Part shown: in pieces, positions 13,652 to 22,860 of the stretch
How positions within the stretch are numbered: position 1 is the stretch's first letter
Layout: every line of letters starts with the position of its first letter
Source of the DNA: Deltaproteobacteria bacterium
GTDB lineage: Bacteria > Desulfobacterota > Desulfobulbia > Desulfobulbales > Desulfocapsaceae
Length of the DNA: 35,955 nucleotides
Direction: 5' to 3'
Assembly (NCBI GenBank): GCA_024280265.1
Contig: JAJRQL010000220.1
Coordinates: forward strand, 1-35,955
Notes under the pieces: model-generated
Databases searched by the model: none
Seen by the model: only the letters and a program-made list of their open reading frames with translations
Told to the model about the DNA's origin: nothing
Made by a program: the position numbers and the translations under genes

Positions 13652-16486
13652 ATGGATTACAGGGATACCCTGAATCTACCGCAGACCAAGTTTAAGATGA
13701 AGGCCAATCTGAACCAGAAAGAGCCAATGTACCTTAAACGCTGGGAAAAAGAAGATCTGTATGGAATGCTTCAGGAGCATGGTGAGGGAAAGCCTCTCTA
13801 TGTTCTTCACGACGGCCCTCCTTATGCGAATGGGCATATCCACCTGGGTACTGCCTTTAACAAGATTTTAAAAGATATCATTCTCAAGTCCCGCCGTATG
13901 GCCGGCTTTCAGGCCCCGTATATTCCCGGTTGGGACTGTCATGGTCTCCCCATTGAGCACAATGTTGATCAGGAACTTGGTGAGAAGAAAAATACCATTC
14001 CCAAAGTAGCCAAACGTGGGGCATGTCGCAAATATGCAGAAAAATGGATAAAAACCCAGAAGGCTGAGTTTAAACGACTGGGAGTCCATGGTGACTGGGA
14101 CAAACCGTATCTCACCATGAATTTTGACTATCAGGCAACCATTGCCGGAGAGTTTAATAAATTTCTTCTCTCGGGATCTGTTATTCGTAACAAGAAACCG
14201 GTGTATTGGTGTTCTACTTGCACTACTGCCCTTGCCGAGGCAGAGGTAGAATATTATGACCACAGTTCCCCGTCAATTTACGTAAAGTTTCCTGTTCAGG
14301 AGGACTGGTCAGATGTTGATCCAGCCCTTGCTGGAGATAAGGTCTCTGTTGTTATCTGGACCACCACTCCCTGGACTCTTCCTGCAAATCTCGCGGTGGC
14401 TTTTCATCCCGAATTCGAATATGCAGCCGTGAAGACAGGTTCCGAAACCCTGATTTTGGCAAAGGAAATGGTCGAAGTGGTAATGGCAGAGATGGAAATT
14501 AAGGATTATTCCATTGAAGCCACTTTTTCTGCCACCGGGCTTGAAAACCGGAAATGCCGCCATCCTTTTCTCGATCGGGATTCTCTGATGGTACTCGCCA
14601 GCTATGTCACCCTTGAGGCTGGTACCGGTTGTGTACATACTGCCCCCGGTCATGGTGCTGACGATTATCTCACAGGACTTCGCTACGACCTTGAAATCCT
14701 CTCTCCTGTTGACAGTGAAGGACGTTATACAGCAGAGGCAGGGAAATATGTCGGTCAGCAGGTTCCAGCTGTGAACAAGGTTATCAATGCGGATATGGCT
14801 GCAAGTGGAGTTCTTCTCCATGAAGATAGAATAGAGCACAGTTACCCTCACTGCTGGCGTTGTAAAAAACCGGTTATGTATCGGGCAACACCGCAGTGGT
14901 TCATTTCCATGGAGGTGAATGATCTTCAGAAAAAGGCCCTGGTCGAGGTTGAGAATGTGCAGTGGACTCCGGCGTGGGGTATGCAACGTATTCATTCCAT
15001 GGTCGAGAATCGTCCTGACTGGTGTCTGTCGCGTCAAAGGACCTGGGGCGTTCCCATAACAGTTGTCAGTTGCAGGAGTTGCGGCGAGGTCGTGAAAAAC
15101 GAGGCCCTTGTTGCGCGCATTGATGAGCTGTTTCGCAAGGAAGGTGCTGATGCCTGGTTCCGTCATGAACTGTCTGAGTTTCTTGAAGAGGGGCATGTCT
15201 GTTCCTCCTGTGGGGGGACTGATTTTGAGAAGGAAGAGGATATCCTCGATGTCTGGTTTGACTCGGGAAGCTCCCATGCAGCGGTTGTTGAGGCGCGTCC
15301 TGAACTCCACGCTCCAGCTGATCTCTATCTTGAGGGAAGTGATCAGCATCGTGGCTGGTTTCAGAGTTCCCTGCTTACTTCGGTGGGAACCAAGGGGCGG
15401 GCACCGTATAAAGGTGTGTTGACTCACGGGTATGTAGTGGATGGGCAGGGAAAGAAAATGTCCAAATCCATTGGTAATGTTGTGGCTCCCAGTGAAGTTA
15501 TTCAGAAGTTTGGCGCGGAAATCCTGCGGCTCTGGGTGTCCAGTGAAGATTACCGGGATGATGTGAAAGTCTCGGACGAGATTCTTAAACAGGTGGCTGA
15601 CAGTTATCGGAAGATTCGTAATACAATACGCTATATGCTTGGTAATGTTACAGACTTTGACCCATCGCTTCATCGAGTTACCTTTGAGGATATGGAAGAG
15701 ATTGACCGCTGGGCACTGGGACGTTTTGAAGAGCTACGGGATAAAATAACTACTGCCTATGACCGTTACGAGTTTCATCCCATTCATCAGGCACTCAATT
15801 ATTTCTGTGGCACCACCATGAGTTCCTTTTATCTAGACATCTTAAAAGACAGGCTCTACTGTTCCGGTACCGATTCATCGTTGCGGCGCTCAGCCCAGAC
15901 TGTGCTTCACGAAATTCTTGGCGGTCTGTTGCAGCTTATGAGTCCGGTACTCACCTTCACCACTGCCGAGGCCTGGGAACATTTTAAGGCTTTAGATGAT
16001 AAGGCACCATTATAGGAGAGTATCTTTTTCACAGAATTTCCTGCTGCAGCTCCTGAACGACGCGACATCTCTCAGGAACAGCGCTGGGAAAAACTCATTC
16101 AGGTGCGTTCGGTTATTACCAAAGCGCTGGAGACAGCCCGTCGTGAAAAGATCATTGGTCATCCGCTTGAGGCCGAGGTAATTATTGAGATGAGTGGGGA
16201 ATGGGCAGAATTTATTAAAAACGAGTGGAACCAGGTGAAGGAAATCTGTATTATCTCCGAGCTTACCCATTGCGACGATAGAGAAGATTTTGCTGAGTTG
16301 GATTTTGTGGCCAGCGAAGAGATCCCCGAGATCTCTGTTGCCGTACAGGCTGCAAGTGGTGAGAAATGTGAGCGTTGCTGGACCCGCGATTCTTTTGTTG
16401 GTTCTAACTCAGATCATCCGCAGCTTTGCAAGAGATGTCTTGATGTTGTGCTTGCCATGGATAGTCAGGAACAGGCAGCAACGTGA
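13652..16486 (+). CDS. ileS: isoleucyl-tRNA synthetase, interrupted by an in-frame TAG at codon 788
   Basis: IleRS charges tRNA-Ile. The frame holds the class Ia signatures: HIHLG (residues 62-66), the editing (CP1) domain, KMSKS (602-606), the anticodon-binding region, and a C-terminal zinc finger with CERC (906, 909) and CKRC (926, 929). The total is 945 codons including the final TGA, normal for bacteria. Codon 788 (16013-16015) is TAG; the same frame resumes at once (ESIFFTEFP ... WEKLIQVRSVITKALE), so nothing but this codon is damaged. Termination there would remove about 157 residues, including the zinc finger. AAGGAGG precedes the ATG. It heads a long operon with lspA, fabD and the biotin genes. 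Confidence 0.95.
16013..16015 (+). other. in-frame TAG stop within ileS
   Basis: Codons read GCA CCA TTA TAG GAG AGT ATC TTT. One substitution from CAG or GAG would produce it. The downstream 157 residues align with the family in the same frame. Confidence 0.93.
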
Positions 16487-17958: not shown

Positions 17959-18945
17959 ATGATCAATAAGTACTTAACAATAGTAAGGGAAGGAGGAGAG
18001 CTTGATTTTGATCAGGCAATACTGCTGGCAGAGCAGGCAGACTTGGAATCATTGCTTGCTGCAGCCTCTGAGCTGGGTAAAGCGTTCCACGGGGCAGGAT
18101 TTGATCTCTGCTCCATCATAAATGCCAGGTCTGGTCGGTGTTCTGAGGATTGTCGCTACTGTGCCCAGTCCAGTCACTATAATACCAGTATTTTGACATA
18201 TGACCTGGTGGATTCCGGAACGGCCATGGCTCAAGCTGTTGCCAATGATGAGTATGGCGTGAAACGCCTCTCGCTGGTGACTGCCGGTCGCAGCCTCACT
18301 GTTTCACAGTTGGATTCCATGGGTGTTCTTTATGCGGAAATGGCAGAGCGCACCAGCCTGCTTTTCTGTGCTTCCATGGGCTTGCTTACCAGAGAGAAAG
18401 CAGAGCTTCTTGTGTCTTTTGGCGTTCGTCGCTACCATTGCAACCTCGAGGCCTGTAAAGACTTCTTCCCATCCATCTGCACCACCCATACCTGGCAGGA
18501 TAAGGTGGAAACACTGCAAATTGCCAAGGCAGCCGGCATGGATCTCTGTCCCGGTGGTATCATTGGTATGGGGGAAACACTGGATCAGCGTCTGCAGCTT
18601 GCCTTTGAACACCGTGATCTGGAAATTCTCTCTATTCCCATAAATATACTTACTCCAATAGATTCGACTCCCCTTGAGGGGATTGAGCCTGTTTCCCTGG
18701 AGGATGTTCTGCGCTGTGTGGCCCTGTTTCGCTTTATTAATCCCCGTGCAGTTATACGTATTGCAGGAGGGCGTGATCGTTTTGGTGACGATCAGTACCA
18801 GCTTTTCTCCTCTGGTGCCAACGGAGCCATTGTGGGTGATTATCTTACCACCGGAGGTGCAGGAGCAGTCAGAGATCTGACAGAGTTGGCCCGGCTTGGC
18901 TTTGAGGTTCCGAAACAGAATCCGGACAGCAGTGATGACAGCTGA
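17959..18945 (+). CDS. bioB: biotin synthase
   Basis: BioB is the radical SAM enzyme that inserts sulfur into dethiobiotin. The 328-residue protein has the CSEDCRYC cluster motif (Cys61, 65, 68), YHCNLEA and FFPSICTTH (ligands near the auxiliary cluster), GGIIGMGET and RIAGGRD (conserved Arg). The start at 17959 (MINKYLTI) has AGGTG upstream and matches the family; the open frame continues back into fabD out of frame. It is first of the contiguous bioB-A-F-G-C-D set. Confidence 0.95.
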   Translation: MINKYLTIVREGGELDFDQAILLAEQADLESLLAAASELGKAFHGAGFDLCSIINARSGRCSEDCRYCAQSSHYNTSILTYDLVDSGTAMAQAVANDEYGVKRLSLVTAGRSLTVSQLDSMGVLYAEMAERTSLLFCASMGLLTREKAELLVSFGVRRYHCNLEACKDFFPSICTTHTWQDKVETLQIAKAAGMDLCPGGIIGMGETLDQRLQLAFEHRDLEILSIPINILTPIDSTPLEGIEPVSLEDVLRCVALFRFINPRAVIRIAGGRDRFGDDQYQLFSSGANGAIVGDYLTTGGAGAVRDLTELARLGFEVPKQNPDSSDDS

Positions 18946-21399: not shown

Positions 21400-22109
21400 G
21401 AAGTAAATGGCTGCAACAGGGAAGAAGCGACAGGCTGATCCTGTTCTGCAATGGCTGGGGGATGGACGAGAATCCATTTCTGCCACTTGATTGCCATGAT
21501 TGGGACCTCCTCATGCTCTATGATTATCAGAGTTTGACTGTTGTTGAAAATCTCAAAGAACTATTGCAGCGGTATGAGGAGACCGTACTTATATCCTGGT
21601 CCATGGGGGTCTGGGTGGGGCAGCAGCTTTTTGCACCGTTTCGTGCTTGGCTTTCCGGGGCTCTTGCCATAAACGGAACCCTCCGTCCTGTTGATGACAA
21701 CGGTGGTATACCTGAGGCGGTGTTCAGGGCAACTCTTGCTGCTTTTAATGAAAAACAGCGCTTGAAATTCTATTATCGGATGTGCAGAGAGAGAGAACTG
21801 TATAAAACATTTCTTGAGTATCAGCCCAGGCGTAATCTTGCCAGTCAGCACAGGGAGCTTGAGTACCTGCTGCAAAATGTCACGTCGTGTTCCTGTGAAC
21901 ACTCTATTTACAACAGTGTTGTGGTAGCAGATCGTGACCATATTATGCCAACGAAAAACCAGATTCATTTCTGGGAGGATCGTTTTTTCAGGCTGGTAGG
22001 TGGTTCACATTTTATTTTTTACAGTTACAAAAGTTGGGATGAGCTTGCTGCAGAAGCAGAAAAAAACGAGGCCTTAACGGGAATGGTGGATGGTTTTAAC
22101 TCTGAATAA
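21396..22109 (+). CDS. bioG: BioG-type pimeloyl-ACP methyl ester esterase (DUF452)
   Basis: BioG is an alpha/beta hydrolase that removes the methyl group from pimeloyl-ACP methyl ester, doing the job of BioH in E. coli. The 237-residue protein opens with KWLQQGRSDRLILFCNGWGMD, a BioG hallmark, has the nucleophile motif SWSMG (Ser69), ADRDHIMPT near the acid, and GGSHFIF for the His. The start is GTG at 21396, overlapping the bioF stop and preceded by GAAGGGAG. It partners BioC, which lies next. Confidence 0.9.
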   Translation: MRSKWLQQGRSDRLILFCNGWGMDENPFLPLDCHDWDLLMLYDYQSLTVVENLKELLQRYEETVLISWSMGVWVGQQLFAPFRAWLSGALAINGTLRPVDDNGGIPEAVFRATLAAFNEKQRLKFYYRMCRERELYKTFLEYQPRRNLASQHRELEYLLQNVTSCSCEHSIYNSVVVADRDHIMPTKNQIHFWEDRFFRLVGGSHFIFYSYKSWDELAAEAEKNEALTGMVDGFNSE

Positions 22110-22860
22110 ACAGAAGATTGCTCAATGTTTCCGTAGAAGTATGGAAAGCTATGACGAGGCGGCCATTGTCCAGAATGCACTTGCCGGACGACTGGTGCGT
22201 GCTCTTGAGGAACTCCCGGATACGGCTTTCAGGCGAGTGCTTGAGATAGGCTGTTGTACCGGAGTTCTCACTGAAATGCTCTGCAGAGAGAGACAGGTGA
22301 GAACTCTTTTTCTCAACGATCTGGTACCTTAATTTGAAGATCAGGTGCTGCAGAGGCTGGATGCCTTTCAGGGGATGGAAAAGATCCCGAGTTTTGGTGA
22401 CATTGAAGATCTGGAGTTACCGCAGGATCTCTCTCTGGTGCTCTCCGGGGCCACGTTTCAATGGCTCAGTGATCTGCCAGTTTTTTTTAAAAAACTGGCC
22501 GCAGTGCTTCAGCCGGGGGCCTATCTGGCATTTTCCCTGTTTGGTCCCGGAACCTTGAAAGAATTTTCCAGTATAACTTCCGTTGCCCTGCGCTATTTTT
22601 CTGATGATGAGATACTTTCATTTATTGAGGCCGATTTTGCAGTGATGTCTCACGAATCCTATGAGGATACAATTTTTTTTCCTTCGGTGCGGGAAGTACT
22701 GGGACATATTCGGGCAACCGGAGTTGGTGGTGTGTCGCAGTATCAGTGGACCAGGGAGCGTTTGCGATCTTTTGGAGCGCAGTATGTTACTGACTTTATG
22801 CGGGAAGATGGTGTTCCGGTGTCCTATGTCTCGTCTACCTTTGTGCTGAGGAGACGCTGA
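22090..22860 (+). CDS. bioC: malonyl-ACP O-methyltransferase BioC, interrupted by an in-frame TAA at codon 81
   Basis: BioC methylates malonyl-ACP to start pimelate synthesis. The full frame is 257 codons including the stop, close to E. coli BioC (251 aa). SAM motif I reads LEIGCCTG (residues 51-58), where GCGTG is usual: codon 56 is TGT for an expected GGT. Codon 81 (22330-22332) is TAA after LFLNDLVP, and homology resumes at once (FEDQVLQRLDAF ... LVLSGATFQWL ... LAFSLFGPGTLKE ... YVSSTFVL). A truncated 80-residue product could not work. The gene overlaps bioG by 20 bases and bioD by one base. It has two lesions in one gene, so real decay is more likely here than in prfC or ileS. Confidence 0.88.
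22330..22332 (+). other. in-frame TAA stop within bioC
   Basis: Codons read CTG GTA CCT TAA TTT GAA GAT CAG. One substitution from GAA (giving LVPEFED, a natural sequence for this strand end) or from CAA would produce it. Confidence 0.9.

Follow-up and report, generated by a model that had tools for sequence, protein, structure and literature searches.

The gene ileS, which encodes isoleucine--tRNA ligase, is interrupted by an in-frame TAG in a draft genome of Desulfocapsa, and its reading frame continues intact behind this stop codon. This raises the question of whether the TAG is a wrong base, a real mutation, or a codon that is read as an amino acid. The locus lies in a window of 35,955 nucleotides (the whole stretch of DNA that was analysed), which is a single contig, JAJRQL010000220.1, of a draft MAG of 3.33 Mb. 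This MAG consists of 281 contigs and is 96% complete and 1.3% contaminated; its close relatives bear the name Desulfocapsa. The following features of the window are referred to below.

13652..16486, + strand: ileS, isoleucine--tRNA ligase, interrupted frame of 943 sense codons and one internal TAG, ending in TGA
16013..16015, + strand: TAG, ileS codon 788, at a variable linker position
16016..16483, + strand: 156 sense codons 3' of the TAG, zinc finger included (protein 903-932), still under purifying selection
16103..16486, + strand: ORF of 127 aa with a GTG start, taken from a mechanical ORF list, a possible but disfavoured translation restart
22090..22860, + strand: bioC-like malonyl-ACP O-methyltransferase gene, the second broken gene in the window, with TAA at 22330-22332 where the sister genome has GAA

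The interrupted ileS frame

Translation of 13652-16486 on the + strand begins with the ATG at 13652 and ends with the TGA at 16484-16486, right where the next ORF begins (GTG 16483), which we take, from its position and sequence, to be lspA-like. The in-frame TAG claimed in the original prediction is present at 16013-16015 as codon 788 and is the sole internal stop, so the frame is not an uninterrupted one. When read across the TAG, the product scores 948 bits against TIGR00392, above the curated cut-off of 621, and aligns with its relatives end to end at up to 93% identity. The 944 codons also match solved IleRS chains (8c9e and 1ffy/1qu2; 917-921 residues) from end to end. The gene thus resembles known bacterial IleRS in its full-length alignment, in having all domains and in its C-terminal four-cysteine zinc finger, but differs from these in the TAG at codon 788, which is confined to this assembly.

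Pfam places the catalytic domain at residues 28-641, the anticodon-binding domain at 685-845 and zf-FPG_IleRS at 903-932. The TAG falls inside the anticodon-binding match and N-terminal of the zinc finger, in line with the earlier statement that truncation at residue 787 would cost the zinc finger and the end of the anticodon-binding region. An intact frame with four zinc cysteines had also been described behind the TAG, and the codons there are indeed open through the zinc finger; the 157 codons given at the time include the final stop, i.e., 156 of them are sense codons. In a comparison with the sister MAG G010, in which changes were polarised with five further relatives, 14 amino-acid changes on the own branch and 14 on the sister branch were found before the TAG, and 7 on each branch after it. 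The dN/dS after the TAG is 0.12, and the sister-to-outgroup range for the same stretch reaches 0.13. The earlier remark that relaxed selection is not evident therefore still holds after the equal counts of 7 and 7. Judged by these comparisons, the stretch 3' of the TAG has been maintained as protein-coding under selection that is not relaxed, a pattern that an error would leave just as well as readthrough or a very recent mutation.

Codon 788 in relatives and the search for recoding

Conservation of the TAG would be expected of a pyrrolysine system, but a stop at codon 788 occurs in none of the 98 homologous loci that were aligned (in some cases two of these represent one and the same contig), and none of the apparent stops in other relatives lies at this codon. 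Codon 788 is a variable site in this alignment, at which relatives have E, K, S, A, T, D, N, P, G, R, Q or L, with E and K being the commonest. In the nearest relative (93% identity) the codon is CGG, and those found at this position include AAG, GAG, CAG, AAA and CGG, which are one to two substitutions away from TAG. A TAG common to G004, G005 and others was considered and rejected; codon 941 of G004 is the normal end of the gene, and G005 has AAA at codon 788.

Pyrrolysine decoding was tested because other marine Deltaproteobacteria are documented to use it (PMC8318568). No PylS above the cut-off was found in the own genome; there were weak matches alone, in frames of 462-819 codons, and such matches occurred likewise in control genomes. 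The search is able to detect PylS, as one of the 14 control genomes, Methanosarcina acetivorans as expected, came out over the cut-off. Likewise, the own genome yielded no PylD and no match to the tRNA-Pyl pattern with up to 3 mismatches allowed, and a CUA anticodon is absent among the recovered tRNAs, which are an incomplete set (e.g., one Ser anticodon only). TAG acts as an ordinary stop in this genome, where it terminates 113 of the 650 scored ORFs. A search of the genome's own contigs for another ileS, which had been named as one way out, found none, excluding this option within the 96%-complete assembly; apart from some weak ones, the remaining class I hits fit ValRS (C205) and LeuRS (C77).

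Broken genes across the genome

Gene breaks, by substitutions as well as small indels, are several-fold commoner here than in the sister genome, and they include single-copy essential genes and all three stop codons. In a reciprocal comparison, 15 of 142 genes were broken here versus 2 of 145 in G010 (Fisher p = 0.0009), which corresponds to about 10% and 1% of the compared genes, respectively. By fixed criteria against G010, the 15 broken genes comprise 7 with interior stops and 8 with frameshifts. One of the two breaks in G010 lies at residue 23 of a glnS frame, upstream of the start predicted in that genome itself, so the counts, if anything, understate the contrast. When the relatives G009, G010 and G015 were compared together, no breaks were found among them in the region of the window. 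A coding-score screen combined with Pfam and NCBIfam over 1.08 Mb, about a third of the genome, gave several further genes with single in-frame stops past which the protein continues. An enrichment of TAG (5 of 10 candidates) in the first coding-score screen was rejected after homology revealed TAA and TGA breaks and frameshifts too. Some of the candidates from the screen looked like adjacent separate genes, e.g., a lipB-like gene after a biotin/lipoyl gene, cheB-cheR, and an AMP-binding enzyme followed by an ATP-grasp CoA ligase.

The ffh, glnS, aroC, talC-like aldolase, ccsB and prmA-like genes are frameshifted, as is dapA by a looser screen, and stops break mutY (TAG), the bioC-like gene (TAA), an SDR and an MCP-hemerythrin. 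The stop codons at the breaks are TAG and TAA, and TGA occurs outside the compared set, in a bactofilin gene. Also outside this set are pilM and clpX, each with an in-frame TAA (in clpX within the only match over the cut-off), and a PhsA-like molybdopterin oxidoreductase and a histidine kinase that are interrupted by TAG. The indels are mostly 1-base deletions, several of them in short A-runs, i.e., AA to A in ffh, A6 to A5 in dapA and A4 to A3 in the talC-like gene. In ffh, which encodes the signal recognition particle protein (G000:C236, L220, around 18761-18788, - strand), CTTCAAG of the sister reads CTTCAG; the two halves lie in different frames and cover family positions 1-295 and 292-428. 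This ffh is the sole copy, with no second one found at the family cut-off in the own genome. A ClpX/HslU-like ATPase gene at G000:C49:40753-42231 (+ strand) lies in pieces, and its in-frame TAA was counted in the clpX family search; it is possibly another assembly break.

A genome-wide excess of breaks that takes in essential single-copy genes, the mark of assembly error, is thus present, and ileS is not a lone exception, as other core genes are broken as well. As a rule of thumb, and by our own estimate, about 1 in 20 random coding substitutions yields a stop. The 7 interior stops in the roughly 166 kb of compared coding sequence would then correspond to somewhat less than one substitution error per kb. 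Such a rate would be in keeping with an assembly of low coverage or without polishing, and also with the fact that ileS shows no visible excess of changes on its own branch.

A wrong consensus base and its alternatives

Given that 15 of 142 genes are broken here versus 2 of 145 in the sister, with essential genes among them, the TAG in ileS is very probably a wrong base in the consensus and not a new reading of the genetic code. Loss of both ffh and ileS would, to our knowledge, be incompatible with life in any bacterium. The organism could not survive all of these breaks, and decoding of UAG cannot mend frameshifts or TAA, which points to poor consensus accuracy as the simplest common cause. 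The TAG at 16013-16015 would then be a substitution error in the draft MAG that belongs with the other errors, and the ileS of the living organism would be an ordinary uninterrupted gene. The technical cause may be low coverage, a mixture of strains or reads that were not polished. What counts against an error is that the break in ileS is a substitution, whereas indels make up half of the defects catalogued. Unpolished long-read assemblies are known to suffer from homopolymer indels that lead to frameshifts and premature stops (PMC8306402, citing Watson and Warr 2019). The present genome resembles these in its many interrupted core genes, its indels in short homopolymers and the intact sequence past each break; it differs in that substitutions account for about half of its breaks, whereas that paper mainly concerns homopolymer indels. 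Among the three options originally offered, the wrong base is thus strongly supported by the broken share of genes, and the second ileS and readthrough are not; for readthrough or recoding no machinery was found, and TAA, TGA and frameshift breaks in other core genes would be left unexplained.

A recent real nonsense mutation, tolerated via low natural readthrough or confined to part of the population, is unlikely. One or two substitutions would be enough to create TAG from the codons of the relatives, and no trace of relaxed selection is expected if the mutation is very recent, but the truncation would remove the zinc finger and cut into the anticodon-binding domain with no second ileS present in the assembly, and the TAG is accounted for without such a mutation by the excess of breaks, including frameshifts, across the genome. 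We regard it as very unlikely that the TAG is real and that a working IleRS arises either by readthrough, through a suppressor tRNA that the assembly lacks, or as two separately translated pieces. The specific form of the latter, in which a 787-aa N-terminal subunit ends at the TAG, translation restarts at GTG 16103 and the pieces assemble, is scarcely credible. E. coli IleRS that has been cut can reportedly reassemble in vivo, according to Shiba and Schimmel. The linker that holds the TAG is indeed variable, the stop overlaps with an AGGAG motif, and the in-frame GTG 29 codons downstream opens an ORF that contains the zinc finger; however, the AGGAG is about 85 bases upstream of this GTG and far too distant for a ribosome site, protein conservation sets in directly behind the TAG (9-12 of 12 residues equal to those of relatives), and no relative is split.

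Decoding of UAG as an amino acid, either pyrrolysine or one carried by a dedicated amber-suppressor tRNA, is extremely improbable. It has its precedent in the pyrrolysine-decoding marine Deltaproteobacteria (PMC8318568), with which the present case shares the broad lineage and an in-frame UAG with conserved sequence beyond it; several genes here have an internal TAG, and a suppressor tRNA could be absent from an assembly whose recovered tRNA set is incomplete. Against it stand the lack of PylS over the cut-off, of PylD, of a tRNA-Pyl pattern and of a CUA anticodon among the recovered tRNAs, the frequent use of TAG as a terminator, and the breaks by TAA, TGA and frameshift. Moreover, ileS is not a methylamine methyltransferase gene. 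Equally remote is genuine genome decay, e.g., in a symbiont that became restricted to its host only recently and carries many true pseudogenes; such decay would account for many broken genes in a single genome; however, the sole ffh, clpX and ileS are among the broken genes, the size of 3.3 Mb is normal for the genus, and selection on ileS is unchanged.

If the TAG is such a wrong base, it would have no bearing on the biology of the genetic code. It serves as a warning that a draft scored as 96% complete and 1.3% contaminated can carry about one in ten genes broken, and a lone interrupted essential gene in such a draft should therefore not be taken as recoding. Such cases can be settled quickly by counting broken genes reciprocally between the draft and a sister genome. 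In the wider group, another draft genome (L132, JAHJLI010000307.1) was found to have a single in-frame TAG in ileS, at the equivalent of codon 428; no PylS over the cut-off was found in L132, and its TAG is probably an error or the sign of a pseudogene as well.
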